Below, in pieces: positions 8,921-37,379 of a stretch of 37,641 bases of DNA. Location of the stretch: IMG/VR virus record IMGVR_UViG_3300042542_004418, positions 1-37,641 of that record. One strand, written 5' to 3'. The notes below the pieces were generated by a model. That model did not search any database, was not told where the DNA came from, and saw only the letters and a program-made list of their open reading frames with translations. Numbering within the stretch: position 1 is the stretch's first letter; each line of letters opens with the position of its first letter. This DNA comes from a virus. Made by a program: the position numbers and the translations under genes.

Positions 8921-8926
8921 TATAAT
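8921..8926 (+). promoter_or_regulatory. -10 box for a leaderless lipoprotein mRNA
   Basis: TATAAT followed by six bases (GGGGAT) and the ATG at 8933, so the transcript starts at or next to the start codon. No clear -35 hexamer is seen at the expected distance. Confidence 0.65.
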
Positions 8927-8932
8927 GGGGAT

Positions 8933-9118
8933 ATGAAAAAATTGACATCCCTCTTACTTTGCGGTATACTTGTAGTAGGCCTTTCAGGATGCTCAAGTCG
9001 ATATAGATATGAATGTCAAGACCCAGAGAATTGGAAGGAAGCAAGGTGCAACCCACCAGCATGTGAATCATCTGGTACATGCACAAAAGACTTAGTAAGG
9101 GAAACTGAAAATGGCTAA
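8933..9118 (+). CDS. Small phage lipoprotein
   Basis: 61-aa lipoprotein precursor: KK start, hydrophobic core and a lipobox LSGC, so the cysteine at about 20 would be lipidated. The mature part is only about 40 residues, with four more cysteines in a pattern YECQDPENW...CNPPAC...GTC that recurs in short virion- or envelope-associated phage proteins (recalled family; function not defined). It is followed by, and overlaps, a membrane protein and the lysin, which suggests an envelope role in lysis or exclusion. Confidence 0.75.
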   Translation: MKKLTSLLLCGILVVGLSGCSSRYRYECQDPENWKEARCNPPACESSGTCTKDLVRETENG

Positions 9119-9515
9119 ACGAAGAACACAAGCAGAACTAGATGGTTTACTTAAATTTCTTTTAGGTCTTACTCTAGGATCAATATTATTTTTTACAACA
9201 ATGGGTATTTTATATGCCTTGATTTTTGTTGAACAACCATTAACTGGACAATCAGAAAACGATAAAATGTTTTTTAATGTTCTTGGTAGCGTTGCAACAT
9301 TTATTACAGGAACGCTGGCTGGTATTTTAATTGGTCAATCAGGCGCTAAAGACGTAATGGAAGCACAATTAGCAAATAAAGAAATGGATGCTAAAAATAC
9401 TCAAGCAGATAAAAAGTTAGAAGCAGAAATTGATGAAGCAAAAGCACGTAGGCTAGCAAAGCCAGATGGCGCAATGCCAGAAGAACAACCAGTAGATACT
9501 GATTGGGATAAATAA
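9111..9515 (+). CDS. Membrane protein upstream of the lysin (possible holin)
   Basis: 134 aa. Two transmembrane segments (about 13-40 and 56-76) precede a charged coiled-coil tail with an AKARR motif and an acidic, proline-containing end. The start overlaps the lipoprotein stop, and the stop lies one base before the lysin start, so the three are co-translated. The position directly before the endolysin makes holin or lysis-control protein the leading guess, but the long cytoplasmic tail is atypical. Confidence 0.6.
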   Translation: MAKRRTQAELDGLLKFLLGLTLGSILFFTTMGILYALIFVEQPLTGQSENDKMFFNVLGSVATFITGTLAGILIGQSGAKDVMEAQLANKEMDAKNTQADKKLEAEIDEAKARRLAKPDGAMPEEQPVDTDWDK

Positions 9516-9516
9516 A

Positions 9517-10125
9517 ATGGCAGAGCAGGGTACAGCAGAAAGATTTGTTGAAGTAGCCAAAGGTGAAATCGGAACTATTGAAGGTCCAAAAGATAACGAA
9601 ACAAAATATGGTGCTTTTACAAAAGCAAATTTTCAACCTTGGTGTGGATCGTTTGTGATGTGGTGCGCTAACGAAGCAGGAGTCAAAGTTCCAAACACTG
9701 TCTACACCCCAAGTGGAGCAGCAGCCTTTAAGAAAAAGAATTCATGGATTGATGGTGATGTCGCTGATCCTGAGCCAGGAGATGTTGCTTATTTTGATTT
9801 CCCCTCAGATGGCGTTGATCGTATATCTCATGTCGGAATTGTCATTAAAGATAATGAAGATGGCACAGTTTGGTGCATTGAGGGTAACACTTCTAGTGAT
9901 GCAAAAGGAAGTCAAAGAAATGGTGGAGAGGTTTGTAAAAAACTTCGTGCCTATAAGAAAAATAAGAAAAATATTATGGTTTCAATTGTAGGATTTGGTA
10001 GACCTAAGTTTGGTTCTTCGCCAAAATCATCACCATCTACTTCATCAAAATCTTCCAAAGTAGATCCAAGTATTCAGGCTGCTATTGATCTTTTAAAGTC
10101 TAAAGGCTATAAAGTTACTAAATAG
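9517..10125 (+). CDS. CHAP-domain endolysin
   Basis: 202-aa peptidoglycan hydrolase (amidase or endopeptidase) for host lysis. The CHAP catalytic residues are visible: C43 in PWCGSFV, H105 in SHVGIV and E122/N124 in IEGNT. A serine/lysine-rich linker (about 166-182) leads to a short C-terminal segment, IQAAIDLLKSKGYKV, typical of small helical cell-wall binding or helper motifs. There is no signal peptide, so release depends on a holin such as the upstream membrane proteins or the holin-like protein at 28579. Confidence 0.9.
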   Translation: MAEQGTAERFVEVAKGEIGTIEGPKDNETKYGAFTKANFQPWCGSFVMWCANEAGVKVPNTVYTPSGAAAFKKKNSWIDGDVADPEPGDVAYFDFPSDGVDRISHVGIVIKDNEDGTVWCIEGNTSSDAKGSQRNGGEVCKKLRAYKKNKKNIMVSIVGFGRPKFGSSPKSSPSTSSKSSKVDPSIQAAIDLLKSKGYKVTK

Positions 10126-10153
10126 TTTTATATTGCTATAGGAAGGTTATACA

Positions 10154-10675
10154 ATGACATGTATTGCTGTTGTTAAACAGGATGGCAGAATTTTTATGGC
10201 AGGAGATCGTGGTGCTTCTGATGAAGATAATATAATGTCTATTGTTGCTCCTAAGGTTTGGAAAACAGGTCCATATCTTTTTGGTTATGCTGGAACAATG
10301 GATGGTGAAAGAATAAGACATAACTTTAAGCCACCAATGCCAGAAGGAAATTTAGATAAATTTATGTATACTAAATTTATTAAATCTCTTAGAACATTTT
10401 ATGAAAATTGGTGGGTAGATACAAGCAAAGATGCAGATTTTGGAATGATTATTTGTGTGCGTGGAAGAATATTTGAACACAATGCGGTTGATATGTCATT
10501 AACAGAATATCAACAGCCTTTCTTATGCATGGGATCTGGATCACAATATGCTTATGGATCTTTATATTCAACACAAAAACAAAAAAATCCAAGAAATAGA
10601 GTTAGAAATGCAGTTGCAGCAGCCATTGAGTATTCACCATCTTGTAAAGGTCCAATTGACACGGTAAGCGCTTAA
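10154..10675 (+). CDS. Proteasome beta-like Ntn-hydrolase
   Basis: 173-aa protein of the 20S proteasome/HslV fold. If the initiator Met is removed, Thr2 becomes Thr1 and two key residues fall at canonical proteasome numbers: D18 (AGDR) becomes Asp17 and K34 (APKVW) becomes Lys33. A glycine/serine loop, GSGSQYAYG, corresponds to the Ser129 region, and the C-terminal PIDTVSA fits Asp166...Ser169. It should be an active threonine peptidase. AGGAAGG precedes the ATG. It could mature proheads, or process host proteins in a host lineage that commonly has proteasomes. Confidence 0.85.
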   Translation: MTCIAVVKQDGRIFMAGDRGASDEDNIMSIVAPKVWKTGPYLFGYAGTMDGERIRHNFKPPMPEGNLDKFMYTKFIKSLRTFYENWWVDTSKDADFGMIICVRGRIFEHNAVDMSLTEYQQPFLCMGSGSQYAYGSLYSTQKQKNPRNRVRNAVAAAIEYSPSCKGPIDTVSA

Positions 10676-11331
10676 TGGTTGATACAAAAAAATATTTTAA
10701 TGTTTGGTATAAATCACAAACAGAATCTTTTCTTGATATTAATAAAAATTCTAACATAAGGCCAGCCTGGCTAGAGTATTCCTATATATTAAATGGAGAG
10801 TATGGCAATTCTATCATTAAACCTATAAATCATTATGTAGAAAAGTTATATGTTAAACCAGATTTAATAAGTATTAATAATAATAAAGTAGTTTTACAAC
10901 AAACAAATCATGCTGAAATTTTTTTATTAAAAATGAGTTTTGAAAATAAATTAAAAGCACTAGATAGACCACATATGCGTCAATTTTATATGTCAAATAA
11001 AAATAAAATAATTGAAGGTAATAAATTTAATGCAATGTATAGATTCTATATCCCTTGGTTTTTAGATATTGATAATGTATTAATTAATGTGAAGCAACCA
11101 GACAACTCTCCTTTTATTATTGAAGAAAAACAATACTTAACTAAAAAATATAATAAAGATAATAACTATGTGGATCCAGAAATGATATTTTTTAATTTTT
11201 TAAGTTATGGACCACATATGATAGATGAAGAATATGGTCGTATAAAACGATTGTCCCCAATGTTTAACTTAGAATTTGAAGTAGATGATATAATTATAAA
11301 TAAAATTAAGGAGTTTTATGGCAAAAATTAA
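10675..11331 (+). CDS. Unknown phage protein
   Basis: 218 aa, AT-rich and lysine/asparagine-rich, with no recognised domain. The middle has an aromatic stretch (YRFYIPWFLDIDNVLI). The start is coupled to the previous stop (TAATG), and the end overlaps the next gene, which has an AAGGAG site. It heads a run of related-looking proteins at 11318 and 12034, so a shared role is likely. No signal peptide or membrane segment. Confidence 0.7.
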   Translation: MVDTKKYFNVWYKSQTESFLDINKNSNIRPAWLEYSYILNGEYGNSIIKPINHYVEKLYVKPDLISINNNKVVLQQTNHAEIFLLKMSFENKLKALDRPHMRQFYMSNKNKIIEGNKFNAMYRFYIPWFLDIDNVLINVKQPDNSPFIIEEKQYLTKKYNKDNNYVDPEMIFFNFLSYGPHMIDEEYGRIKRLSPMFNLEFEVDDIIINKIKEFYGKN

Positions 11332-13678: not shown

Positions 13679-13686
13679 GAGAAAAA

Positions 13687-14466: not shown

Positions 14467-14486
14467 CAATAGTAAGGAGTGATATA

Positions 14487-18592: not shown

Positions 18593-19135
18593 ATGCTTAA
18601 TGAAACATGTCAATTTTTTGATCCCATGATGATTTTACCTGTAAAAGAAAAAGATTTTGAATCCTATGAAGAGTATAAAGGGTCATTAAATACTGCTTGT
18701 GTAGCAAAAGCATATGTTTATATAGAAGGCGTTCATGGAAAAATATTTTTATGCGATTTTCATTATTTTTATAAAAAAGATATAATAACAAAAAGAAATC
18801 CAAAATTATGGCCAGAAGTTATAAAAATTTTAATAGAAAATTTAGAAGATATTAAAAGTGAATTTGCACCCACTGACGGAATACAAGAAATACCTAATGA
18901 TAAAAAATGTTGGTGTAGCAAGCAAGCCTATGTATCAATAATGGATAAAAGGGTGATGGATGAAATCATAAGAAAAAAATATACTATCTACATGTGTAAT
19001 TTTCATTATAGAAAGTCATATTATAGGCATTTATCTAATAATATTCCGCTAGAAAAATACTATATTATTCGTGATGAAAGGCATAGGTCTAATTTAGGAA
19101 TTAACGAAGAATTTGAACAGTTGACAATTTTGTAA
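18593..19135 (+). CDS. Cys/His-rich protein with two DUF7455-like halves
   Basis: 180 aa. Two segments resemble the small zinc protein that follows at 19156: residues about 35-60 (ACVAKAYVYIEG...LCDFHY) and about 103-140 (CWCSKQAYVSIM...MCNFHY). Each has an N-terminal cysteine or CxC, a beta hairpin and a Cys-x-x-His, as in the zinc fold of DUF7455. The first half has lost one cysteine. Probably arose by duplication and divergence of that gene; function unknown. Confidence 0.7.
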   Translation: MLNETCQFFDPMMILPVKEKDFESYEEYKGSLNTACVAKAYVYIEGVHGKIFLCDFHYFYKKDIITKRNPKLWPEVIKILIENLEDIKSEFAPTDGIQEIPNDKKCWCSKQAYVSIMDKRVMDEIIRKKYTIYMCNFHYRKSYYRHLSNNIPLEKYYIIRDERHRSNLGINEEFEQLTIL

Positions 19136-19149
19136 TAACTGTGTATAAT
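19121..19149 (+). promoter_or_regulatory. Consensus sigma70 promoter
   Basis: TTGACA (19121-19126), a 17-base spacer and TATAAT (19144-19149): a full match to the consensus. Six bases separate the -10 box from ATG at 19156, so the message is leaderless. The -35 lies inside the end of the upstream gene. Confidence 0.9.
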
Positions 19150-19155
19150 TATGAT

Positions 19156-19374
19156 ATGAATCAAACAATTGCGTTATCAAATTCTCAAGATATTTTAACA
19201 GTTCAAGACAGATGTGATACATGTGGCGCTAGAGCGCTAGTTTTGGTTAAGGGAGTAAGCGGTTCACTCATGTTTTGTGGTCATCATTATAATAAAATTA
19301 TGGATAATGCTGTTGGGTATGACAAAATGATGAAATTTGCTTATGAAATAATAGACAATAGAGAAAAAAAATGA
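19156..19374 (+). CDS. DUF7455-type zinc protein
   Basis: 72 aa. CDTCGARALVLV...SGSLMFCGHHYN is the signature of the small actinobacterial/actinophage DUF7455 family: CxxC and CxHH zinc ligands around a beta hairpin. The frame is open to a GTG 15 bases further upstream, but that codon overlaps the -10 box, so ATG at 19156 is the real start. The promoter matches the consensus exactly, so this should be among the most highly transcribed genes here. Overlaps the next gene by ATGA. Confidence 0.88.
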   Translation: MNQTIALSNSQDILTVQDRCDTCGARALVLVKGVSGSLMFCGHHYNKIMDNAVGYDKMMKFAYEIIDNREKK

Positions 19375-21037: not shown

Positions 21038-21367
21038 GTGGAAATCGAAGATCAGATTATTCTTGAATTAGTTGAAAAGGGTGCCTTAGAAATCATGGGC
21101 ACAGACAAAGAAACTGGTGAGATTATTTATAAGGTTACAGATAAAATGAAAGAAGTTAACCCTTTGTTATTTGAAGAGCATCAAAACCATGTTCATGATG
21201 AAACTATGTTTTTATGGGAAACAGGATTTTTAAATATAGACGTTACAGAAGCCAATCCAATAGTTAAACTAACCCCAAAAGCATTTAATCCAGAGGCAGT
21301 TGCTGGGCTTCCTCTTTTAAAACGCCTAGCCCTAGAAGATATTAAGTCAATACTTATTAAAAAGTGA
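21038..21367 (+). CDS. Unknown phage protein
   Basis: 109 aa, acidic, GTG start after AGGAG. The N-terminus (IILELVEKGALEIMGTDKETGEIIYKVT) reads like a winged-helix or small beta segment; the rest, around HNHVHDETMFLWETGFLNID, is a pattern I associate with phage structural-region proteins. It is followed by a conserved phage protein with its own promoter. No firm function. Confidence 0.7.
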   Translation: MEIEDQIILELVEKGALEIMGTDKETGEIIYKVTDKMKEVNPLLFEEHQNHVHDETMFLWETGFLNIDVTEANPIVKLTPKAFNPEAVAGLPLLKRLALEDIKSILIKK

Positions 21368-21373
21368 TATACT
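21365..21373 (+). promoter_or_regulatory. Extended -10 promoter, leaderless
   Basis: TGA followed by TATACT, then six bases and the ATG at 21380. It overlaps the stop codon of the upstream gene. No convincing -35 is present, as expected for an extended -10. Confidence 0.75.
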
Positions 21374-21379
21374 ATTAAT

Positions 21380-22397: not shown

Positions 22398-22562
22398 ATG
22401 TCGTCTGGTCAATATAAAAGGCATGATGGTTTTAATCAAATGCAAATAAAAAATGGATATATTGCACATGTTAGAAAAGATGGAACTATTAAACAATACT
22501 ATAATAGAAAAACAATGGCTCCAGTTTCAAAAGCAATCGCAGAACAATTAAATAGTAAATAG
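22398..22562 (+). CDS. Small basic unknown protein
   Basis: 54 aa: contains NGYIAHVRKDGTIKQYYNR, a short beta-hairpin-like segment seen in small phage proteins, and an overall positive charge. GGAG precedes the ATG and overlaps the previous stop region. Function unknown. Confidence 0.65.
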   Translation: MSSGQYKRHDGFNQMQIKNGYIAHVRKDGTIKQYYNRKTMAPVSKAIAEQLNSK

Positions 22563-25927: not shown

Positions 25928-26608
25928 TTATTTTTCTAAAGGGCTTTTATCTGCAAACTCATTTTTTAAAACATCATCAAACAATTTAATAAAAGATTTA
26001 TCATTAGTTGATAAAAAATTACTATTTTTATTATAATCAAATGATTCTGCCCATGGTCTATCTAAATGTACTTTTACATCATTTATTTCTTCCCCACCCA
26101 CTTCATATAAATTCCCATACATTGTTCGTACTGAAAGGGATGGATAGATAACTGTAGATAATTTTTCTTTATTCATTTTTATTGGAACATGTATAGCATA
26201 ATCTAATGGATTTTTTATTTGTTTTTTTATTAAAAGATTATATGTATCTGATAACATTTTGGTATAAGAAGATGCAGGAGCATGAGTTTTAAATTTTTTT
26301 ATTTTATCTAATAAGGTTCCACCGTGCATGTATGGAATATCGATCATTGGCTTCATAATAAAAAAATCATCATTCATTAAAATAAAATCATTTGGTATAT
26401 TATTAGAAGTAACAAGTTTATTAAGATTATTTCTAACATTGACATGTTTGGTTCTGTTTTGATTAACCTCAATATAATTTCCGCTATACCATACAGGTTT
26501 TCCACCAATAATCCAAATATTAGGGTTATTTATATTTTTATATAAAGACCGAATAGAATATCTTAGTTCTTCGTTATCGCCATTTCTGCAGATATACACA
26601 AAATTCAT
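25928..26608 (-). CDS. Stealth-like sugar-phosphate transferase
   Basis: 226 aa from the chosen start. GDNEELRYSIRSLYKN, WIIGGKPVW and NDFILMNDDFFIMKP follow the conserved order of Stealth-type hexose-1-phosphate transferases used in capsule synthesis: the ELRYSLRS-like helix and the NDD metal motif. It would transfer a sugar phosphate to a glycan. An ATG three codons upstream (26617) overlaps the -10 box, so the downstream ATG at 26608 is preferred. An isolated minus-strand gene within a plus-strand block. Confidence 0.75.
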   Translation of the reverse strand: MNFVYICRNGDNEELRYSIRSLYKNINNPNIWIIGGKPVWYSGNYIEVNQNRTKHVNVRNNLNKLVTSNNIPNDFILMNDDFFIMKPMIDIPYMHGGTLLDKIKKFKTHAPASSYTKMLSDTYNLLIKKQIKNPLDYAIHVPIKMNKEKLSTVIYPSLSVRTMYGNLYEVGGEEINDVKVHLDRPWAESFDYNKNSNFLSTNDKSFIKLFDDVLKNEFADKSPLEK

Positions 26609-26615
26609 ATTATTC

Positions 26616-26624
26616 ATTATAACA
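26616..26624 (-). promoter_or_regulatory. Extended -10 promoter, leaderless, minus strand
   Basis: On the minus strand TGT precedes TATAAT (26621-26616), and seven bases later comes the ATG at 26608. No ribosome site lies between. Confidence 0.72.
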
Positions 26625-26645: not shown

Positions 26646-26673
26646 TTGACAATATTTTTATTTCTGATATACT
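26646..26673 (+). promoter_or_regulatory. Sigma70 promoter, leaderless GTG gene
   Basis: TTGACA (26646-26651), a 16-base spacer ending in TGA, and TATACT (26668-26673). Six bases later a GTG (26680) opens the small zinc protein. It is back to back with the minus-strand promoter at 26616. Confidence 0.82.
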
Positions 26674-26679
26674 GTTAAG

Positions 26680-26853
26680 GTGATAGATTTAAGAGGAGCC
26701 CCTACCCATATTTGTGTATGTGGATCTAAAATATGGAACATTAAAGCAATGTTTGAAGATGGCGCTATTGCATTATATTTTTTAGATATGAAGTGTGCAG
26801 AATGTGGTGCATTAGCAACAGCCCCAACAGAAGTTGATGCAGGTGGAGTGTAA
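26680..26853 (+). CDS. Small CxC/CxxC zinc-ribbon phage protein
   Basis: 57 aa starting with GTG: DLRGAPTHICVCGSK, then FLDMKCAECGALATAPT, which is a zinc ribbon with CxC and CxxC knuckles. I recall very similar short proteins in actinophages; function unknown. The GTG is supported by the promoter exactly six bases upstream, and the stop overlaps the methyltransferase ATG (TAATG). Confidence 0.8.
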   Translation: MIDLRGAPTHICVCGSKIWNIKAMFEDGAIALYFLDMKCAECGALATAPTEVDAGGV

Positions 26854-28860: not shown

Positions 28861-28874
28861 AAATAAAAATAAAT

Positions 28875-28903
28875 AGGCCATACAGAAATGTGTGGCCTTT
28901 TTT
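28875..28903 (+). terminator. Intrinsic terminator with GAAA loop
   Basis: A 10-bp stem (AGGCCATACA with TGTGTGGCCT, one G-U pair) is capped by the stable GAAA tetraloop and followed by TTTTT. The -35 of the next gene begins two bases after it. Confidence 0.93.
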
Positions 28904-28904
28904 A

Positions 28905-28933
28905 TTGACAAAAGAAAGTAAACACGATATACT
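28905..28933 (+). promoter_or_regulatory. Sigma70 promoter of the secreted protease
   Basis: TTGACA (28905-28910), exactly 17 bases, TATACT (28928-28933), then six bases to ATG 28940: a near-consensus promoter giving a leaderless mRNA. Confidence 0.9.
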
Positions 28934-28939
28934 TAATTT

Positions 28940-29857
28940 ATGAAAAAAATAATATTATCTACAATATCTTTTTTAATTATTTCTATTGTGCCAGCAAACG
29001 CACTTCAAAATGGAGAATTAATTACTAAAGACCCCAACGCTGTTGCCGTTGGATTTGATAATCATGGTGGATGCGGGGGATTTATGATCTCATCAAGAAT
29101 TTTGCTTACCGCTGCACATTGTACTTATGGAGTTAAGTTACCTAGTTTTGAAATATACGAATTAAAAGACACAGAAGTCTATGCCTGGTCTGTAGATAAA
29201 ATGTATAAAGAATCAGTTAAATCAGTTAAAATTTATAGGCCAAAAAATTTTAAATGGCAACAGACAAATGGATCCTGGGCATATAATGAAGACTTTGCTG
29301 CTGTAGTTCTTTCAAAACCTTTACCTTTTAATAATAAAGTTAAGATTGCAACTCAAGAAGATATTGAAGGTTTTAAGAAAAGTAAAACCAAGGCAACTTT
29401 AATTGGTTTTGGCTTACAGTCTTCAAATAGAAGTATTGCTGCTCAGTTTCCTAGTAAAGCAACTTTTGAATTAATAGATCAAGCAGAAGCAGACCTAACA
29501 ATTAACGAATATAGAGGCAAATGGGGTCGTAGCGGAACATATGAATATCCAGTACATTTAAGAATTGTAAAAAATGGCTCAACCCCCTGCGATGGAGATT
29601 CTGGTTCTCCAGTCTTTATTGAACAAAATGAAACTAGATTTTATGTAGGTCCTGCTTCTTATATTCTAGGTTCAACAAATTGTGGCAACGAACAAACTTG
29701 GGGCACTTATGATGGAATTCAATCTATAAGTCCTGCATATATATATTTGCCTTTAATTGCAGAAGCCGAAAAATATGTTCAAGAATATATTAAAACGGAA
29801 ATTAAAGAGCCTGTAAAGTCAATTACTAAAAAGAAAAACAAAAAGGTTAAAAAATGA
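28940..29857 (+). CDS. Secreted trypsin-fold (S1) serine protease
   Basis: 305 aa. Signal peptide with cleavage after NA (about residue 21). Catalytic triad H60 (LLTAAHC), D118 (NEDFAAVVL) and S221 (CDGDSGSP); C45-C61 matches the classic disulfide beside the histidine, and C217 and C248 could form another. The residue six before the serine is Thr215, so trypsin-like Lys/Arg specificity is not predicted by simple alignment. The tail is basic (KKKNKKVKK). It would act outside the host membrane. Driven by a near-consensus promoter. Confidence 0.9.
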   Translation: MKKIILSTISFLIISIVPANALQNGELITKDPNAVAVGFDNHGGCGGFMISSRILLTAAHCTYGVKLPSFEIYELKDTEVYAWSVDKMYKESVKSVKIYRPKNFKWQQTNGSWAYNEDFAAVVLSKPLPFNNKVKIATQEDIEGFKKSKTKATLIGFGLQSSNRSIAAQFPSKATFELIDQAEADLTINEYRGKWGRSGTYEYPVHLRIVKNGSTPCDGDSGSPVFIEQNETRFYVGPASYILGSTNCGNEQTWGTYDGIQSISPAYIYLPLIAEAEKYVQEYIKTEIKEPVKSITKKKNKKVKK

Positions 29858-30567
29858 AAATATTGCTAAACTCTAGCCCTAGAACTGGTATGGCCAGATT
29901 GTTGCAATATTTAAGAATAGTTTATCAAAGAACAGATTTTATAAATAATGGCGAATATGGAGAATATTCTAATAGAAAAGATTTTATACTTTGGGCCCAC
30001 TCTCCAATTACAACTTTAGCAATATTTAAAGATATACTGCAAATAACAATAATTAGAAATCCAGATGAAGTAATTCCTTCTATTTGTGATAAAATTTATT
30101 CTGGAGTTGGTCTTGATGTATATGATAATATACCATCAAAAAGTAAAATAAATTTTGATTTATATGAAGATACAACTGAATACATGAATCAATCTGTTTA
30201 TTCTACATCTTTAGAATATATGTCATATTTAGATAATACTATAAATAATTTTGAGAATTTGCTTGTTTTTTCTTTCTATGATACAGTAAATAATGTAGAT
30301 CTTGTAATTGATACAATATGTTCAAAAATTGATGAAAAATATTTACCAATTAATAAAAATATAATAGAAGAAATAGATAAAGTAATACATGAAAGATGGC
30401 AATTAGAAGAAAAAGACAGGTATGAACGTGCCAATAGAGGACCTGTTAAAACAAAATCAGAAGAATATTATAAGTTTAAAGATATATTTTTAAATAGTGA
30501 TTTAAGACCTCAACTTTTAGAAAAATATAATTTTTTAATTAATAAAATAAATAAAAAAAATATTTAG
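29854..30567 (+). CDS. Sulfotransferase-like P-loop protein
   Basis: 237 aa. LLNSSPRTGMARLLQYL fits the 5'-phosphosulfate loop of sulfotransferases, and ITIIRNPDEVIPSICDKIYSG fits the 3'-phosphate motif (RxP...S). The rest is helical. It may transfer sulfate from PAPS to a glycan or protein. The lysine usually found in the first loop is replaced (Arg only), so activity is uncertain. It overlaps the protease gene at ATGA and the convergent HNH gene at its end. Confidence 0.65.
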   Translation: MKILLNSSPRTGMARLLQYLRIVYQRTDFINNGEYGEYSNRKDFILWAHSPITTLAIFKDILQITIIRNPDEVIPSICDKIYSGVGLDVYDNIPSKSKINFDLYEDTTEYMNQSVYSTSLEYMSYLDNTINNFENLLVFSFYDTVNNVDLVIDTICSKIDEKYLPINKNIIEEIDKVIHERWQLEEKDRYERANRGPVKTKSEEYYKFKDIFLNSDLRPQLLEKYNFLINKINKKNI

Positions 30568-30833
30568 TTATTATGCCTTCTATTATAAGTTCTAATTCTA
30601 TGACAATTAGAGCAAACCACTTCACACTTTTCTATTTCTTTGGCAATTGCTTTCCATGAAAATCCATCTCTAATCATTTGAGAAATATTATATTTTTTAT
30701 CTTTAATATGATCAAAATCTAATATTATAGGATTATTGATTCCACAATCCATGCAACCAGCCATTTCTTTAATTTTGGCAAGTTTATCTCTAAACTCTTT
30801 CTTTCGTCTATGTTCCAATTCTTTTTTAGTCAT
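30564..30833 (-). CDS. HNH endonuclease
   Basis: 89 aa. CMDC, then DFDHIKDKK, then CSNCHRIRTYNRR: a zinc-bound HNH core with the catalytic His in DFDH. The basic N-terminus may bind DNA. Such small freestanding HNH proteins are often mobile homing enzymes or packaging helpers. It is convergent with, and overlaps by four bases, the sulfotransferase-like gene. Confidence 0.88.
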   Translation of the reverse strand: MTKKELEHRRKKEFRDKLAKIKEMAGCMDCGINNPIILDFDHIKDKKYNISQMIRDGFSWKAIAKEIEKCEVVCSNCHRIRTYNRRHNN

Positions 30834-30843
30834 AGATAAATAT

Positions 30844-30852
30844 ATTATATCA
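30844..30852 (-). promoter_or_regulatory. Extended -10 promoter of the HNH gene
   Basis: On the minus strand TGA then TATAAT, with ten bases before the ATG at 30833, leaving a leader of about three or four bases and no ribosome site. Confidence 0.6.
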
Positions 30853-30986: not shown

Positions 30987-31403
30987 TTACTTTATTTTAA
31001 TTGTTTTAGGTTTTTTCTCCTCTGGCACAATACGATCAATGCTAACATGAAGCATTCCATCTTTCATTTCTGCACCAGTAACCTCCATGTATTCACCAAG
31101 AGCAAATGATCGTGTAAATTTACGACCAGCAATTCCTTTATGAACAACTTCAGCATCATAAACTTCGGTAATCTCACCTTTAACAATTAATGTTCCATTA
31201 TCTACAGAAACATCAATATTGTCTTTTGAAAAACCAGCGACAGCAATAGAAAGTCTATATGTATCCTCATCTAGTTTTAAAAGATCATAAGGTGGGTATG
31301 ACTGACTATTTACCTTATGCAGATTACCAAAACGCTCCAATTCACGATTGAAGCCAATAAAAAATGGATCTTTAAAAAGATCCAAAGCGAATGTACTTAC
31401 CAT
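30987..31403 (-). CDS. Hsp20/alpha-crystallin small heat-shock protein
   Basis: 138 aa from the chosen start. The alpha-crystallin domain is clear: YPPYDLLKLDEDTYRLSIAV, GFSKDNIDVSVDNGTLIVKG, then RKFTRSFALGEYMEV and the MKDGMLHVSI strand, ending KTIKIK like an I-x-I tail. It holds unfolded proteins, possibly virion proteins during assembly, as phage Hsp20s in cyanophages are thought to. ATG 31403 has AAGGAG six bases upstream; the frame extends 11 codons further but without such a site. Confidence 0.93.
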   Translation of the reverse strand: MVSTFALDLFKDPFFIGFNRELERFGNLHKVNSQSYPPYDLLKLDEDTYRLSIAVAGFSKDNIDVSVDNGTLIVKGEITEVYDAEVVHKGIAGRKFTRSFALGEYMEVTGAEMKDGMLHVSIDRIVPEEKKPKTIKIK

Positions 31404-31461
31404 TTTTTTCTCCTTTTTAAGCAAGTTGTTTTGCACCCCTCATTCGAGCAGGTACATAAAT

Positions 31462-31470
31462 ATTATATCA
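31462..31470 (-). promoter_or_regulatory. Extended -10 promoter of the Hsp20 gene
   Basis: Minus-strand TGA then TATAAT. Transcription should start near 31455, giving a leader of about 50 bases with the AAGGAG site. Unlike its neighbours, this gene is not leaderless. Confidence 0.6.
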
Positions 31471-31473
31471 TAA

Positions 31474-32265
31474 CTAATCTATAGATGTCCAATAAGTAGT
31501 AGGGCCAGGACTAAAGGGAGTATTATGAATACATCCTACTATCCATATAAACCCATCATTTTTTAAAATATTAATCATTTCATTTTTTACGTATTCTGGA
31601 TTACCATAAATTAACGTTTCGTTATGCATAGTCATATTGACTCCAATAAAAATCCAAGAATCAGATCCAAAAATATTTTCAATAGATTCTATTGTTTCTA
31701 TTATTCGAGTTTTAGAATCCAAAAAAACTACAGTCGAGTATAAGGTTTTTGAACTATTTAAAATATTGTTTTTATCTGAAATGTTTTTAGGCAAATATCC
31801 GTAATAATGAAAATTTCCTGTAGGAAAACCAGATAGGGCTAATGCTGTTATGGCTACATTGGGCCCAGGAATTGATGTTACAACTATATCATTTTCTATT
31901 GCTAGTTCTACAATTTCTCTTCCAGGATCTGTTATTGTAGGCATCCCACAATCACTTATCATTAAAACTTTTTTATTATTTTTAAGATGTTCTAAAGTCT
32001 TGTCAAAAGTTTCTATATGGCTTCCATCGTATTGTAATAAAATTATATCTTTTGTATGGTTTAAATTATAGTTATTACAAAGTTCTATAAAAATTTCTAT
32101 ATTTTCAGTTACAACAACATCTGCCTGAGGAATTACTTCAAGCATTCTAATGGGAAGATCTTGCTTATTTCCTATTGGCATTCCCCCAAGAATAAGACAG
32201 CCCTTTTGATAATCTTTTAAATTTTTAAATGTATTTATATTTTTAAAAGTAGTTTGTTTAAACAC
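31474..32265 (-). CDS. rsmI: RsmI-like 16S rRNA 2'-O-ribose methyltransferase
   Basis: 263 aa, tetrapyrrole-methylase fold. GGMPIGNKQDLPIRMLEVI corresponds to the family's TPIGNL segment, SDCGMPTITDPGREIVE to the DAGxPxISDPG motif, and SIPGPNVAITALALSGFPTGNF to the PGPSA...SGLPT motif. Cellular RsmI methylates C1402 of 16S rRNA at the decoding centre. Domain order is complete and length near normal (about 280). Whether the phage enzyme has the same target or another ribose is unknown. It overlaps the small gene upstream by eight bases. Confidence 0.85.
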   Translation of the reverse strand: MFKQTTFKNINTFKNLKDYQKGCLILGGMPIGNKQDLPIRMLEVIPQADVVVTENIEIFIELCNNYNLNHTKDIILLQYDGSHIETFDKTLEHLKNNKKVLMISDCGMPTITDPGREIVELAIENDIVVTSIPGPNVAITALALSGFPTGNFHYYGYLPKNISDKNNILNSSKTLYSTVVFLDSKTRIIETIESIENIFGSDSWIFIGVNMTMHNETLIYGNPEYVKNEMINILKNDGFIWIVGCIHNTPFSPGPTTYWTSID

Positions 32266-32449
32266 TTGTATTCACATTGCTTTCTTTTTCACTAATGGTA
32301 TCAATTATTTTTGCTATATATTCACTATAGGGTACGTCTAAAATAATATTTTGATTATCTATTCTTAAAATTTTGATTTCTTTGCCAAGATCAAACAATA
32401 TCTCTTCTAGTTGACCCTTTATTATTTGCACTTCTTCTTTATTTAACAT
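32258..32449 (-). CDS. Small unknown protein coupled to the RsmI homologue
   Basis: 63 aa, with a helix (EEVQIIKGQLEEILFDLGK), a strand pair (IKILRIDNQNIILDV) and an acidic helix. It starts six bases after an extended -10 and runs into the RsmI gene with an 8-base overlap, so the two are one transcript. No recognised family. Confidence 0.7.
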   Translation of the reverse strand: MLNKEEVQIIKGQLEEILFDLGKEIKILRIDNQNIILDVPYSEYIAKIIDTISEKESNVNTSV

Positions 32450-32455
32450 ATTATC

Positions 32456-32480
32456 ATTATAGCATGAATTATGATATAAT
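32456..32480. promoter_or_regulatory. Divergent pair of leaderless promoters
   Basis: Minus strand: TGC-TATAAT with -10 at 32456-32461 and ATG at 32449 six bases on. Plus strand: TGA-TATAAT with -10 at 32475-32480 and ATG at 32487 six bases on. The two start codons are only 37 bases apart, and both transcripts start at the first codon. Confidence 0.85.
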
Positions 32481-32486
32481 TAAAAT

Positions 32487-33179
32487 ATGAGTGATTATAT
32501 TAATAAAGAAATTATACAGAATTCTATAATTAATAAAATACCTATTTTTATACCAGACTATGAGACGGATTTAAATAAATTGGCAAATTGGGCAGATGTT
32601 GCTAGACAATTTAGAATTAATTTGGAAAAGCCAGATTCTGGAGAAAATAATAAATTTCATAGCACCAAAGGTCATGCTCATTTTATGGATAAAAATAATT
32701 TTTATCTTGACCATATTCATCTTATTGAAACTAAGATTAGACATTTAGCAAAAAAAATACAAGAGGTTCATCCTAAAAAAAGAATAACAACAGCCACAAC
32801 AATTGCAACGTTAGATGATGTTGTTGTTGATAAAGATTATAGCGATATACAAAAAATCATGTATGATAATTATATATCTATAAATGAATTTTCTTTAAAG
32901 GCTCATCACGAACCAAGTTTACATAACGATGAAACCGATAACCTATATCTTCAATGTTACGGAGAAGTAGAATGGGTCGTACATAACAAAAAATATTTAA
33001 TAAAACCAGGTCAAGCAATATTTGTTCCTGCCTTTACGGATCATATTGTTCATTTTAAAAAAGTTCCAAGAATGGCTATTATTATGAATTTTTTAAGTGA
33101 TACAGTTAATAAACCTAGTTTACCTCAGTTTGACGAAACAACTGGCAAAACTTATTACGAATATAATAAAAATATTTAA
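32487..33179 (+). CDS. Cupin/JmjC-like 2OG-Fe(II) oxygenase 2
   Basis: 230 aa. H146 and D148 (SLHNDETD) and H186 (FTDHIVHF), with LQCYGEVEWVV and IKPGQAIFVP between, form the cupin_8/JmjC-like core. An N-terminal helical part (1-135) is separate. The substrate is unknown. The leaderless start is supported by the promoter, and the end overlaps the convergent thioredoxin gene by four bases. Confidence 0.75.
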   Translation: MSDYINKEIIQNSIINKIPIFIPDYETDLNKLANWADVARQFRINLEKPDSGENNKFHSTKGHAHFMDKNNFYLDHIHLIETKIRHLAKKIQEVHPKKRITTATTIATLDDVVVDKDYSDIQKIMYDNYISINEFSLKAHHEPSLHNDETDNLYLQCYGEVEWVVHNKKYLIKPGQAIFVPAFTDHIVHFKKVPRMAIIMNFLSDTVNKPSLPQFDETTGKTYYEYNKNI

Positions 33180-33427
33180 CTGGTATATTCTATTAATTGC
33201 TCATTGGTTATTAGTCCTACGTGTCTATGTGAAACTACCATATTTTCTTTAACAAATAATAAAGTAGGAACGGAAAGAACTGAATATTCTCTTGCTTTTT
33301 CAATATGAGCATCAACATCTACTAAAATATAGTTAATGTCTGATCTATTTTCTAAAAATGAATCTATAATTGGTTTTATTTTTTTACAAGGGTTGCACCA
33401 TTCAGCGGTAAAGTGTATTATAGTCAT
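33176..33427 (-). CDS. Thioredoxin-like protein
   Basis: 83 aa, minimal thioredoxin fold with the redox motif W10-C-N-P-C14, the cis-proline region SVPTLLFV, and no signal peptide. NPC in place of GPC may shift its redox potential toward a glutaredoxin-like value. Phage thioredoxins reduce ribonucleotide reductase or act as polymerase partners; neither partner is in this window. Own leaderless promoter. Confidence 0.92.
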   Translation of the reverse strand: MTIIHFTAEWCNPCKKIKPIIDSFLENRSDINYILVDVDAHIEKAREYSVLSVPTLLFVKENMVVSHRHVGLITNEQLIEYTS

Positions 33428-33433
33428 CTAGTT

Positions 33434-33442
33434 ATTATATCA
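33434..33442 (-). promoter_or_regulatory. Extended -10 promoter of thioredoxin, leaderless
   Basis: Minus strand TGA then TATAAT (33439-33434), six bases, ATG 33427. Confidence 0.8.
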
Positions 33443-33450
33443 TAATAATG

Positions 33451-33709: not shown

Positions 33710-33813
33710 TTATGTTCCTTTAAATGTGCTTGTAATGTATAAAAAGCAAAAGAAGATCTAACTTGAATTTCTTTTTTACACAAATCACATATGACCATTC
33801 TATTTGCTGACAT
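33706..33813 (-). CDS. 35-aa C2H2-type zinc-finger peptide
   Basis: MVICDLCKKEIQVRS then LQAHLKEH: CxxC, twelve or more residues, HxxxH, the spacing of a classical C2H2 finger, rare in bacteria but found in phages. A TATAAT nine bases before the ATG gives a near-leaderless start. First gene of a three-gene minus-strand operon. Confidence 0.7.
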   Translation of the reverse strand: MSANRMVICDLCKKEIQVRSSFAFYTLQAHLKEHK

Positions 33814-33839
33814 TATATATCCATTATACTATACTGAAT

Positions 33840-33870: not shown

Positions 33871-34656
33871 ATTAACAGTAATAATTGCGGACGGTATTGC
33901 TGGACCACCCATAGCACCAGTATTATACTTCATTCTAATATGATGATTATCTGTGGCCCAATAAATTTGAATAAAATCATTTGCATTTAATTTTTGGAAA
34001 AAATTCCATGCAGCAACAACATATGGGCTATTAGTGTTTACTGCAATACGTGTGTTAGAGTCTGAAATTGCTGTACCATTTTTAGTAAACCAGATTTCAA
34101 CGGTTTGACCATTTCCCCCACCACCATCATTATGAAACTGAAATGAAAATGCAAAGTTGTATGTGCCAGCATTTTGTGCTTTTATTTTACTATTATCTAA
34201 TACAGTAAACCCACCTGTTGCATCATTATCTATTTGTCTAATTAAAACTGGAATTCCAATAGATTCTTGTCCTTGTATAATTTCTTGAGTTTGAATATCA
34301 TAAAAAGATCCACGAGATCCAAAGCCCCCTGTTGCACCAGTTTCACCTTGTGGTCCCTGAGCACCATCAATACCCTTTTGTGCAATTAAAGTCCAGAACG
34401 TTCCTTCTGCTGGAGTATCTCCAGTGTTACCTCCGTTTGAATTAATACGGTACCAAGTTTCTCCATTATAAGTTGCAACATCACCTACGGCATAAGATGC
34501 GCCAAGATTATAGGCACCAGTAAAATTCCAAAGAGCATCTGTTCCATCAGCACCTGCTGGGCCTGTCTCGCCTGGTATTCCTTGTTCACCCTGAGGACCT
34601 TGTGGCCCAGGGATTCCAGATCCATCACCAGTTCCAGGATGAGTAAATCGTGCCAT
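33859..34656 (-). CDS. Collagen-like fibre with C1q-like tip
   Basis: 265 aa. Gly-X-Y repeats (IPGPQGPQGEQGIPGETGP, about 14-38), a small carbohydrate-binding-like domain (WNFTGAYNLGASYAVGDVAT ... TFWTLIAQKG, about 42-94), a second short collagen run (about 95-113), and a beta-sandwich head about 115-265 of the C1q/TNF type. Such trimeric proteins form phage tail or capsid fibres that bind host glycans. It overlaps its partner gene upstream by one base. Confidence 0.88.
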   Translation of the reverse strand: MARFTHPGTGDGSGIPGPQGPQGEQGIPGETGPAGADGTDALWNFTGAYNLGASYAVGDVATYNGETWYRINSNGGNTGDTPAEGTFWTLIAQKGIDGAQGPQGETGATGGFGSRGSFYDIQTQEIIQGQESIGIPVLIRQIDNDATGGFTVLDNSKIKAQNAGTYNFAFSFQFHNDGGGGNGQTVEIWFTKNGTAISDSNTRIAVNTNSPYVVAAWNFFQKLNANDFIQIYWATDNHHIRMKYNTGAMGGPAIPSAIITVNQVG

Positions 34657-34940
34657 TATGAACCTTGCTCTAGGTTTGTTATCATTACTGCTACATTCAT
34701 TCCATTATTAGAAGCAATAGCGTATAAAGAATCTGTTCCTGGAAGTTCAAAAGAGATAGCATGGTTTGGTAATATTCTATATCCATAATCTGATGAGGCA
34801 ACAGAACTGTTTGAGCCTATATAAATATATCCAGAGTCGTTAACATTTTGAATCGTAATGTCTACTCCGCCATGAACACCATTTGGGCTTAGGCGGGTTG
34901 TAGATGAATTGCTTAAAGTAATTAAATTATGTAACGCCAT
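34656..34940 (-). CDS. Conserved small phage structural protein
   Basis: 94 aa, all beta: LSPNGVHGGVDITIQNVNDSG, YIYIGSNSSVASSDYGYRI and ISFELPGTDSLYAIAS. A family I recall beside fibre genes in many phages; likely part of the tail or adhesion complex. Leaderless promoter six bases upstream. Confidence 0.78.
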   Translation of the reverse strand: MALHNLITLSNSSTTRLSPNGVHGGVDITIQNVNDSGYIYIGSNSSVASSDYGYRILPNHAISFELPGTDSLYAIASNNGMNVAVMITNLEQGS

Positions 34941-34946
34941 TAGATT

Positions 34947-34955
34947 AGTATATCA
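34947..34955 (-). promoter_or_regulatory. Extended -10 promoter of the fibre operon, leaderless
   Basis: Minus strand TGA then TATACT (34952-34947), six bases, ATG 34940. Confidence 0.8.
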
Positions 34956-34975
34956 TTGTATTTCGGCGATATAGA

Positions 34976-35039
34976 GTTCGGCGACAAATAGAAATAGCAA
35001 ACCCTCCTATGCACCTAACGGTGCACTATTGGTTAGTAT
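34976..35039 (+). repeat. Structured repeat, copy 1
   Basis: 64 bases nearly identical to 35440-35502. Its core is a 6-bp hairpin, TGCACC-TAAC-GGTGCA. The second copy has a different but equally perfect hairpin, so paired bases changed together, which points to a conserved RNA or DNA structure. An outer pairing AACC/GGTT is kept in both. Confidence 0.75.
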
Positions 35040-35107: not shown

Positions 35108-35228
35108 CATCTTCAGGGCCTTCAATTGATATCCAAACCCCATCTTGATCAAGACCCCATGTCATGAAAACATAACAGGCAATATAGCCAAGAATAAAGG
35201 CGGGAATTAAGAATAATAAATTTACCAT
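35100..35228 (-). CDS. 42-aa membrane protein
   Basis: MVNLLFLIPAFILGYIACYV forms one membrane helix, followed by FMTWGLDQDGVWISIEGPEDDE, an acidic tail. There is no clear ribosome site; a TTGACA (35257-35252) lies upstream on the minus strand, but the 17-base spacing puts the -10 (TGTTAT) right against the ATG. Coupled to the next tiny gene. Function unknown. Confidence 0.6.
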   Translation of the reverse strand: MVNLLFLIPAFILGYIACYVFMTWGLDQDGVWISIEGPEDDE

Positions 35229-35261
35229 ATAACAATGATATCAAACCTTTATGTCAAAATA

Positions 35262-35360
35262 AAGAGAGGGGACAGTTTTAAGACTTGTCCAGGTCCTATC
35301 CTGATCAGTAATTTATAGACGCTGTCAGGCTCTCATATTGCGTCTTGGCTTTGGTTAAGC
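35262..35360 (-). ncRNA. Candidate small structured RNA or leader
   Basis: Downstream of the strong minus-strand promoter at 35367-35395 the transcript would contain AGACGC (35345-35340) pairing with GCGTCT (35322-35317), a palindrome CTGATCAG, and a hairpin GGACA/TGTCC ending in CCTCTCTTTATTTT. No ORF fits, so it is either a short RNA of about 95 bases or the leader of the 42-aa gene. Confidence 0.4.
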
Positions 35361-35366
35361 ATTATA

Positions 35367-35395
35367 AGTATACAAAGGTTTGAAAGGTTTGTCAA
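35367..35395 (-). promoter_or_regulatory. Consensus-like minus-strand promoter with tandem operator
   Basis: TTGACA (35395-35390), 17 bases and TATACT (35372-35367). The spacer and -35 are made up almost wholly of two abutting copies of AAAGGTTTG (35374-35382, 35383-35391), so a protein bound there would block the promoter. Confidence 0.82.
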
Positions 35396-35439
35396 GTCAA
35401 ATTTCGAGAGTAAAGGCAAGGCAAAAATAGAAGTTTAAA

Positions 35440-35502
35440 GTTCGGCGCAAAATAGAAGTAGCAAACCTTCCTATGCCCTAAGAGGGCACTATCGGTTAGT
35501 AT
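35440..35502 (+). repeat. Structured repeat, copy 2
   Basis: 63 bases matching 34976-35039. The hairpin is TGCCCT-AAG-AGGGCA, perfect like copy 1 but with two base pairs replaced (A-T to C-G, C-G to T-A). It lies just upstream of the -10 box at 35516. Confidence 0.75.
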
Positions 35503-35515
35503 CCTACCTATGCGA

Positions 35516-35521
35516 TATAAT
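35516..35521 (+). promoter_or_regulatory. -10 box of the 45-aa membrane protein
   Basis: TATAAT, 26 bases before the ATG at 35548, which has its own AAGGAG. A leadered mRNA of about 20 bases is expected. No clear -35. Confidence 0.55.
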
Positions 35522-35547
35522 GGATTGATATAGATTAAGGAGTAAAC

Positions 35548-35685
35548 ATGGGAGTGCTTTGGTTTTTTGTTGGATTGGTTGTGGGCTTAGCCCTAGATTT
35601 TGTTTTAGTATTGCATATGCTCAAACCTCTTAAGAAACGTATTGTGGAATTAGAAAATCGGTGGGTAGACAAACAAAGACCGTAA
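35548..35685 (+). CDS. 45-aa membrane protein
   Basis: One N-terminal membrane helix (VLWFFVGLVVGLALDFVLVL), then a basic amphipathic helix (LKPLKKRIVELENRW). TTAAGGAG before the ATG is a strong ribosome site. Function unknown; the layout is like small phage spanin or inhibitor-type peptides, without further support. Confidence 0.7.
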   Translation: MGVLWFFVGLVVGLALDFVLVLHMLKPLKKRIVELENRWVDKQRP

Positions 35686-35702
35686 TCTTCCAGTGTAATA
35701 AC

Positions 35703-35735
35703 AAGCCTATCCGCAATATGGGCGGGGACAGGCTT
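35703..35735 (+). other. Intergenic hairpin
   Basis: AAGCCT (35703-35708) with AGGCTT (35730-35735), and inside it CCGC with GCGG. It follows the 45-aa gene by 17 bases and may end its transcript, though no T-run follows. Confidence 0.5.
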
Positions 35736-35768
35736 AAACCTTCAATAATGCTATAATAAGATATACCC

Positions 35769-35963
35769 ATGTGCCCTATATGTAATAACCACCTGATACC
35801 AATCGTATATGGTTTTGTAGGGAAGAAATATCTGGATGCCCACGAGAAAGGTTTGATATTTCTGGTTAGCAGGACATATCACCGAAAGTCTGATCCATTG
35901 TCATATTGCCCAGTATGCCATGAATCGTATGATGAGGATATTGCCTTACCCCCGCTTTTTTAG
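35769..35963 (+). CDS. Small two-knuckle zinc-ribbon protein
   Basis: 64 aa. MCPICNNHLIPIVYGFVG at the N-terminus and CPVCHE near the C-terminus form a zinc ribbon; similar short proteins are widespread in actinobacteria (recalled), function unknown. TGC-TATAAT (35749-35757) lies 11 bases upstream, giving a very short leader. Confidence 0.78.
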   Translation: MCPICNNHLIPIVYGFVGKKYLDAHEKGLIFLVSRTYHRKSDPLSYCPVCHESYDEDIALPPLF

Positions 35964-36039
35964 TCTCTCTAATAGGCTAATATGGCCTGATATGAAGGTT
36001 TTAGGGTTTGTCAACAAACTCTTAGTATAATAAGTTATA

Positions 36040-36690
36040 ATGAAAACAGTCTTTATACTGGCAGCAGGTGATGGAACTAGATGGGAAAACTATAGAGGTA
36101 GCCCTAAGCATAAAGTCCTAGTTGAAGGTGAAGTCCTGATTGAAAGGACATATAGGCAGTTTTCTAAGTATGCTGATAAAGTTATAATAGTCGCAGATGA
36201 AGAACAAGGTTTTGCCGAAACTTATATCCCCGCTAAAAATAAAGATTGGAAAGATATAGCCAAGTTCTGGTCAAGCAAAGATATTTGGTCAGAAGGTAAA
36301 AATATTATGGTTTTTGCAGATGTATATTTTACAGATGAAGCCGTTGAGTCGATAATGAATGATCCTTATGGCCTATCATTTTATTTAAGAAGTAGGCGTT
36401 CTGAAATTACACAAAAACCATGGAGAGAGATATGGGGCATAGGGTTTGATGGTTTGTCTATTGATATTTTAAAGTCTTCAATATTAAGCATTATAGAATC
36501 TAAAGAAAATTATAATACTGGTGGTTGGCGTTTGCTTGATCAATTGAATAAAGATAATCAAAGGGTGAACTTAGTAGAAATAGATGATTGGACTGAAGAT
36601 TTTGATTTTCCTAAAGATATAAGAAGATGGGAAAAGCAAAGAAATGAATTTTTATCTAAAATAAATCTTACTGACAATAACAAGATCTGA
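36040..36690 (+). CDS. Sugar nucleotidyltransferase-like protein
   Basis: 216 aa. FILAAGDGTRW (G10-D-G-T-R14) is the nucleotide-binding signature, K25 in SPKHKVLV the expected substrate lysine, and MVFADVYFTDE the DxD-like metal region. Such enzymes make NDP-sugars for glycosyltransferases, linking it with those at 12797 and 19371. TATAAT lies eight bases before the ATG, so it is probably near-leaderless. Confidence 0.78.
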   Translation: MKTVFILAAGDGTRWENYRGSPKHKVLVEGEVLIERTYRQFSKYADKVIIVADEEQGFAETYIPAKNKDWKDIAKFWSSKDIWSEGKNIMVFADVYFTDEAVESIMNDPYGLSFYLRSRRSEITQKPWREIWGIGFDGLSIDILKSSILSIIESKENYNTGGWRLLDQLNKDNQRVNLVEIDDWTEDFDFPKDIRRWEKQRNEFLSKINLTDNNKI

Positions 36691-36982
36691 CTGTGGTGAG
36701 TAGTGGAGAATAGTGGTGGGTAATGGAGCGTTTATATCGTAGGGCTCGTAATGTCGTAACGGGCCAAACCTCATATCCTCCAAACCTTCAAACCTTTATA
36801 TCCTGCATATAGGACCTGCATTATATACCAGATATGATGGTTTGTCAAGTAATTTCAAACCTTTATACCCCAAATATCCCGTATAAAAAACCACAAAAAA
36901 TCCAGGAAAAATTTAAATAAATCGTAAAAAGGTTTTAAAAAGTTTAAAAACCAGATAAAAAGGTTTGTTATTTATATAGGGA
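36691..36982. other. AT-rich non-coding regulatory stretch
   Basis: Holds a purine-rich run with repeated TAGTGG-like units (about 36695-36725), a hairpin GGCTCGT (36743-36749)/ACGGGCC (36759-36765), five copies of the AAAGGTTTG motif, a strong minus-strand promoter and a very A/T-rich tract (36880-36960). No convincing gene. It could be a replication origin or a control region. Confidence 0.5.
36820..36848 (-). promoter_or_regulatory. Consensus minus-strand promoter
   Basis: TTGACA (36848-36843), exactly 17 bases, TATAAT (36825-36820): a perfect consensus. The -35 merges with a CAAACC motif. Transcription runs left from about 36813 into the end of the nucleotidyltransferase gene, so its product is an antisense or small RNA, or a tiny ORF. 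Confidence 0.82.
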
Positions 36983-37177
36983 TTATTTGGTGTCGCTTTG
37001 TCTTCCCCGCCTGAAAAAACGGCGGGATCTAGCGATGTGTTTATAAGTCCTAGTAATAGGAGAGAAGGCAAATTGGATAGCATGTTCTATTTTTAATTCC
37101 AACTCTTCTTCTCTCTGGTTTACAGGTTGACCATGAGATTGTCTTCTATATCTTTCTGCAAAATGTCTTGGACTCAT
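36983..37177 (-). CDS. Small basic unknown protein
   Basis: 64 aa, rich in Arg: MSPRHFAERYRRQSHGQ, an acidic middle helix (REEELELKIEHAI) and a basic end (ARSRRFFRRGR). A leaderless promoter exactly upstream supports it as real. Probable nucleic-acid binder. Confidence 0.68.
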   Translation of the reverse strand: MSPRHFAERYRRQSHGQPVNQREEELELKIEHAIQFAFSPITRTYKHIARSRRFFRRGRQSDTK

Positions 37178-37184
37178 ATTTCAA

Positions 37185-37193
37185 ATTATATCA
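37185..37193 (-). promoter_or_regulatory. Extended -10 promoter, leaderless
   Basis: Minus strand TGA then TATAAT (37190-37185), seven bases, ATG 37177. Confidence 0.75.
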
Positions 37194-37235
37194 TCATATT
37201 AAGATACAAAGGTTTGGGCGCAAAAAAGCGGGGGA

Positions 37236-37364
37236 TCAACCAGAATACATATATCTAAAATGCTTCCTACAAGTATCTATAACAAACCCTTCTTCATTGG
37301 TAGAAGAAAAGATAGAGTCATTATCACAGTAATAACACTTTGTTGGGCATTTAAGGTTTGACAT
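37236..37364 (-). CDS. 42-aa Cys/His zinc-type protein
   Basis: MSNLKCPTKCYYCDND then CRKH: C6, C10, C13 and C32/H35 could hold zinc, much like a minimal version of the DUF7455-type zinc fold at 19156. Found because a perfect TGA-TATAAT box sits six bases before the ATG. Codon use is like its neighbours. Confidence 0.65.
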   Translation of the reverse strand: MSNLKCPTKCYYCDNDSIFSSTNEEGFVIDTCRKHFRYMYSG

Positions 37365-37370
37365 ATTTTA

Positions 37371-37379
37371 ATTATATCA
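37371..37379 (-). promoter_or_regulatory. Extended -10 promoter, leaderless
   Basis: Minus strand TGA then TATAAT (37376-37371), six bases, ATG 37364. Confidence 0.78.

Follow-up and report, generated by a model that had tools for sequence, protein, structure and literature searches.

The stretch of DNA analysed here as the window, the whole 37,641-base IMG/VR virus record IMGVR_UViG_3300042542_004418, has a guanine-cytosine (GC) content of 31.5% and carries three tRNA genes, which are the sole matches of an Rfam scan. Many of its genes are preceded by a short module, in which TATAAT or TATACT (TATAMT) is followed, after 6–7 bases counted from the end of the box, by an ATG or GTG start codon. 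A preliminary description had listed twelve such sites, all of which read as claimed, and had proposed that a promoter is fused to the start codon and gives leaderless mRNA; this proposal is strongly supported by the spacing, the promoter anatomy, the depletion of Shine-Dalgarno (SD) sites and the conservation among orthologues, and host sigma70-type promoters fused to the start codon are the preferred explanation, with a probability of about 0.9. Genes that stand alone or have been newly placed (thioredoxin, trypsin-like, cupin, DUF7455, HNH and others) are the main users of the module, and the long run of structural genes has SD sites and overlapping starts. The listed modules, with gene lengths in amino acids (aa), are as follows.

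8921–8935, plus: TATAAT-6-ATG, 61-aa gene 8933–9118; TATAAT-6-ATG retained in 7 of 7 distinct orthologues (52–58% protein identity)
19121–19158, plus: TTGACA-17-TATAAT-6-ATG, DUF7455 gene 19156–19374; spacing 6 retained by 10 of the 12 distinct orthologues whose alignment begins at residue 1
21365–21382, plus: TGA-TATACT-6-ATG, 338-aa gene 21380–22396; orthologue set of 48
26646–26682, plus: TTGACA-16-TATACT-6-GTG, 57-aa gene 26680–26853; weakly conserved, related box in 1 of 3 orthologues
28905–28942, plus: TTGACA-17-TATACT-6-ATG, trypsin-like gene 28940–29857; TTGACA-17-TATAAT-6-ATG in the L210 and L211 orthologues
32472–32489, plus: TGA-TATAAT-6-ATG, cupin-like gene 32487–33179; in L307 and L308, TGATATAAT six bases 5' of an upstream in-frame ATG
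26606–26624, minus: TGT-TATAAT-7-ATG, 226-aa gene 25928–26608; TATAAT-6-ATG in the L090 orthologue
32447–32464, minus: TGC-TATAAT-6-ATG, 63-aa gene 32258–32449, divergent to 32487; spacing 6 retained in the L308 orthologue
33425–33442, minus: TGA-TATAAT-6-ATG, thioredoxin gene 33176–33427; retained in L308
34938–34955, minus: TGA-TATACT-6-ATG, 94-aa gene 34656–34940; L104 homologue SD-led instead
37175–37193, minus: TGA-TATAAT-7-ATG, 64-aa gene 36983–37177
37362–37379, minus: TGA-TATAAT-6-ATG, 42-aa gene 37236–37364; spacing 6 retained in the L105 homologue

Spacing is 6 at ten of these sites and 7 at the other two (26608 and 37177, both on the minus strand), and an SD site is found at none of the twelve (0/12), as had been stated. 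TGn precedes the box at nine of the twelve and is missing at 8933, 19156 and 28940; the last two have TTGACA at a 17-bp spacer instead, and the -35 of the 19156 module lies inside the preceding gene, in its final codons. The promoter of the trypsin-like gene is directly preceded by a terminator-like inverted repeat (GGCCATACAG..TGTGGCCTTTTTT, 28873–28905), which is retained in L210/L211, so that this gene looks like a self-contained unit.

Spacing between box and start codon

Since TATAMT alone occurs about 150 times in a window of such low GC content, only its phase to the start codon, and not the hexamer itself, is informative. The spacing was counted from a hand-curated list of 64 window starts (in which entries 2701, 20423, 28428 and 33541 carry no weight), because greedy calling of open reading frames (ORFs) misses small genes such as those at 8933 and 37364; before these starts TATAMT stands ten times at spacing 6, twice at 7 and at most twice at any other spacing. 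An automated count of the window gave 11 at spacing 6–7, where the other spacings would predict 0.83 (Poisson p = 1.6e-9, with a background that takes spacings as independent, so that non-actinobacterial phages are the stronger control). The TATAAT at 14483, which scores in this count, is SD-led (AAGGAG) and was not included in the set. In 12 related contigs, the preference for spacing 6 over 5, 8 or 10, proposed beforehand as a check, is evident (81 against 7, 4 and 5, respectively), with 20 further cases at 7; this makes 101 at spacing 6–7 against about 14 expected, or 103 against 14.4 when both ATG and GTG starts are counted, although these contigs share ancestry and the counts are not independent events, which is countered by a tree and by de-duplicated upstream sequences (see below). 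No peak at 6–7 was found in T4, P-SSM2, Staphylococcus phage K or SPO1, three of which are about equally AT-rich (T4 0, Staphylococcus phage K 0, P-SSM2 1 at this spacing), and the reversed pattern, used as a control, gave far fewer matches in the same related contigs. The cultured Streptomyces phage LukeCage does have the peak, with TANRNT 17 times at spacing 6 and nine times at 7; its genes at 22443, 29437, 43588 and 109136 are examples. A TANNNT-type signal about 10–12 bases 5' of the start, the mark of the actinobacterial TA-led genes discussed below, is thus present above chance.

The module is also commoner outside genes than inside them, as the second proposed check anticipated, TGnTATAMT being followed by a start at spacing 6 in 58/331 cases outside and 8/118 inside. 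Most genes of the window outside the modules have an SD site or overlap the preceding gene, in agreement with the preliminary description. Its statement that the module marks nearly every transcription unit is nevertheless too strong, as the box stands at 6–7 in about half of the unit-first genes of the window, with a few more at 8–10, and about 40% of the consensus promoters in the relatives are leaderless. Likewise, of the several starts that it was said to correct, two are borne out (19156 rather than GTG 19141, and 26608 rather than ATG 26617).

Promoter anatomy and orthologues

For the analysis of anatomy, 114 TATAMT-start units were pooled. TGn precedes the box in 61 of them, and of the 25 upstream occurrences of TTGAC, 21 have a spacer of exactly 17 bp; sorted by anchor, 59 units have TGn only, 25 a -35 only, two both and 28 neither. 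SD sites are rare in these units (8/114) in comparison with other genes (276/891). A -35 TTGACA at 17±1 bp or an extended -10, as expected of sigma70 (SigA-type) promoters, is therefore present, and sigma70 promoters characteristically fall into an extended -10 and a -35 class. As far as sequence can tell, TTGAC at 17 bp or TGn, almost never both, shows the hexamers to be sigma70-type promoters, and such a division would not arise from a translation signal. The same picture is given by a start-blind test, in which 74 sites were picked only as TTGACA-16..18-TATAMT outside long genes: the first start codon follows at spacing 6 in 30 and at 7–16 in none, and in the remainder it lies mostly at 17 or more, frequently after an SD leader. 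The arrangement of promoter and start thus has two discrete forms, and about 40% of consensus promoters in the relatives (30/74) are leaderless by spacing.

In the proposed mechanism, a host sigma70-type (SigA/HrdB-like) RNA polymerase would read a promoter whose -10 box is separated from the start codon by six or seven bases, anchored by the -35 TTGACA at 17 bp or by the extended -10 (TGn) and seldom by both; transcription would set in on the A of ATG or no more than a few bases away, and the resulting leaderless mRNA would be translated from its 5'-terminal AUG independently of SD pairing, in the manner usual for actinobacteria. The start of transcription at this A is predicted from the -35/-10 geometry, the polymerase is presumably that of the host, and the translation route would be the one established for actinobacteria.

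Both forms are found among orthologues of the gene at 21380, whose start codon is set by alignments that begin at residue 1 and which provide 48 distinct upstream sequences. TATAMT stands at spacing 6–7 in 32 of the 48, none of these with an SD site, and at 23–26 in nine, all nine with an SD site; six have no TATAMT, five of them being SD-led, and the one remaining has TACAAT at spacing 6 plus a second box at spacing 1. In a tree of 49 proteins (window and orthologues), nine changes of form are seen, at least six of which are forced by well-supported branches. The thioredoxin gene has the module here and in L308, and its more distant homologues mostly look operon-embedded and are without it. 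It is conceivable, though doubtful at present, that gene starts in these actinophages are two interchangeable forms, a fused promoter or the same promoter some 17–20 bases higher with an SD leader and almost nothing between, that genes flip repeatedly from one to the other, that a gene leaving an operon may gain the fused form, and that selection may act on the form, for instance through the stage of infection at which the ribosome pool favours leaderless mRNA.

Looser sites, leadered units and alternative explanations

Three looser sites of the preliminary description (6193, 36040 and 33813) are present at the spacings claimed, and a further one precedes the HNH gene; two units with a leader provide a contrast.

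6178–6195, plus: TATAAT-9-ATG, 836-aa gene 6193–8703, near-leaderless; identical arrangement in L003
36026–36042, plus: TATAAT-8-ATG, nucleotidyltransferase-like gene 36040–36690, without TGn
33811–33828, minus: TATAAT-9-ATG, 35-aa ORF at 33813; box at 6 in 3 of 4 homologues
30831–30852, minus: TGA-TATAAT-10-ATG, HNH gene 30564–30833, not in the preliminary description; box at 7 in 15 of 23 orthologues
35516–35550, plus: leadered contrast, TATAAT, AAGGAG-containing leader, ATG at 35548 (spacing 26)
31401–31470, minus: leadered contrast, TGATATAAT, then a leader of about 55 nt with AAGGAG and the Hsp20 gene (about 31403)

Across phages, TGn accompanies 6/7 sites at spacing 8 and 5/18 at spacing 9, and those HNH orthologues that lack a box at 7 mostly carry it near 10, an obvious SD site being absent from all of the latter; a near-leaderless start is plausible at 36040 and 30833, to judge by class or conservation. 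SD leaders in the window precede 14487, 28579, the Hsp20 gene and 35548, the last two with TATAAT further upstream. Two observations weigh against a uniformly leaderless interpretation: spacing 9 is just slightly enriched and TGn is rare there, which makes 6193 and 33813 weaker cases, and a few spacing-6 sites in other contigs have a good SD site together with an alternative ATG and are not leaderless. Apparent modules with a good SD site in G004 and G018 (AAGGAGG...) were set aside as SD-led.

That TATAAT often lies near ATG in any AT-rich phage, and that the good cases were picked, is suggested by the abundance of TATAMT at this GC content; this has a negligible probability and is already refuted by the spacing peak, which exceeds expectation in the window and the relatives and is lacking in phages equally rich in AT, and a conserved -35 or TGn at the right distance would not be expected either. 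The hexamer could also serve translation, being a ribosome standby or S1-like element rich in AT, since it occupies the position of the SD site, and AT-rich stretches 5' of starts can help translation in other bacteria. This is extremely improbable, as the box is accompanied by a -35 at 17 bp or by TGn, which only a promoter needs, and as the same promoter stands 23–26 bases upstream where an SD leader exists.

The two other alternatives accept the hexamer as a promoter. The true transcript start might be further up or down, leaving either a short leader or a start codon that is internal, and sites at 8–10 do occur, some of them conserved; nevertheless, from TTGACA-17-TATAMT transcription is expected to begin 6–7 bases past the box, at the ATG itself, in consensus promoters outside genes the first start codon never falls at 7–16, and SD sites are missing, so that a displaced start is unlikely. 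Finally, the mRNAs could be leaderless and the units recognized by a sigma factor that the phage encodes, in place of the main sigma of the host. Isolated Nanopelagicales phages encode a sigma-70 gene (PMC10202952), and the window may be a fragment of its phage genome; the boxes here are of the ordinary sigma70 consensus, which leaves a low probability for a dedicated phage factor and favours the host sigma70-type promoters fused to the start codon.

Neighbouring features, host and known systems

Besides the start modules, CAAACC/AGGTTTG heptamers are clustered at 35240–37475, most densely at 36765–37565 and partly in non-coding DNA; AGGTTTG occurs 26 times in the window against 5.6 expected, the majority in this stretch, and clusters of 8–15 CAAACC per 800 bp are also found in G003, G004, G005, G007, G010 and G018. 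A consensus promoter, TTGACAAA..TATAATG, opening into the CAAACC-rich stretch is common to seven phages, being located at 36826–36854 (minus strand) in the window and at G003:9867, G005:19254, G007:9577, G010 near 47216, G004:40835 and G018 near 5886 in the relatives. In the six relatives the promoter is followed, over the next 250 bases or so, by two or three DnaA-box-like TGTGGATAA, and the window copy is without them. Promoter and repeats may represent an origin of phage replication, together with a primer or a non-coding RNA. A duplicated block (34972–35039 and 35436–35502; TAGAGTTCGGCGACAAATAG...CAAACCCTCCTATGC and CCTAACGGTGCACTATTGGTTAGTAT), whose copies are 85–88% alike and about 464 bases apart, had no match in the Rfam scan. 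The cargo-like genes of the window comprise an Hsp20 chaperone and a tetrapyrrole-methylase-family protein (30987–32265, minus strand), the thioredoxin (33176–33427, minus) and the trypsin-like protease (28940–29857, plus).

The marker genes, terminase and DUF7455, are closest to those of Actinobacteria phages. The large terminase has homologues in many environmental viral contigs, its nearest cultured relatives being those of Streptomyces phages of the Stanwilliamsviridae (54% identity over 100% of the length), and the phage homologues of the DUF7455 gene are in Microbacterium, Curtobacterium and Mycobacterium phages; on these grounds the host is likely actinobacterial. Against bacterial genomes, the DUF7455 protein gave one match, in a metagenome-assembled genome (MAG) labelled as a cyanobacterium. 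This homologue lies on a 110-kb contig (L122, CAINGU010000031.1) which may be a misbinned phage, since the family was otherwise seen here in actinophages.

A literature search, incomplete in its coverage, found no paper on leaderless starts in uncultivated aquatic actinophages. In such phages, TATAMT at 6–7 bases is a usable start signal, SD-reliant automatic gene finders may misplace or miss small leaderless genes, and the signal may hint at an actinobacterial host for phage contigs that lack a host assignment. That one gene has numerous orthologues of either form also offers a natural experiment on the interconversion of leaderless and leadered starts.

More than 20% of the genes in actinobacteria are TA-led, TANNNT lying about 12 bases before their start codons, and among orthologues SD-led and TA-led forms replace each other (Zheng et al. 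2011, PMC3160421). The units described here resemble them in the position of the box (about 12 bases before the start, counted from the first T), the missing SD site and the exchange of forms, and differ in belonging to phages and in having near-perfect TATAMT boxes with TGn or TTGACA; the near-perfect boxes are probably due to the low GC content. In Mycobacterium tuberculosis, leaderless transcripts were mapped by RNA sequencing, with a TANNNT -10, no conserved -35 and TGN in 7% (Cortes et al. 2013, PMC3898074); transcription starts at the start codon in both systems, mapped there and predicted here, whereas a -35 or TGn is present in about three quarters of the units here. In Deinococcus-Thermus, a -10 region adjacent to the ORF, 6–7 bp upstream, was demonstrated by mutation and reporters (Zhong et al. 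2025, PMC12340547), and altering the box was reported to cause loss of RNA in Deinococcus (PMC12340547); the spacing of 6–7 bases and the optional -35 at 17 bp are shared with the present units, which belong to another phylum and were recognized from sequence. Among phages, leaderless promoters have been predicted in cluster O mycobacteriophages (PMC4351075), where they are few and from five phages; the units reported here number more than 100, come from uncultivated phages and show both conservation and switching. LukeCage (Stanwilliamsviridae), among the closest cultured terminase relatives, has the same spacing peak and differs in its GC content of 49% and its weaker boxes. In summary, the precedents of the TA-led genes, M. 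tuberculosis, Deinococcus and cluster O leave little room for a new mechanism, and leaderless starts are a known actinobacterial habit.

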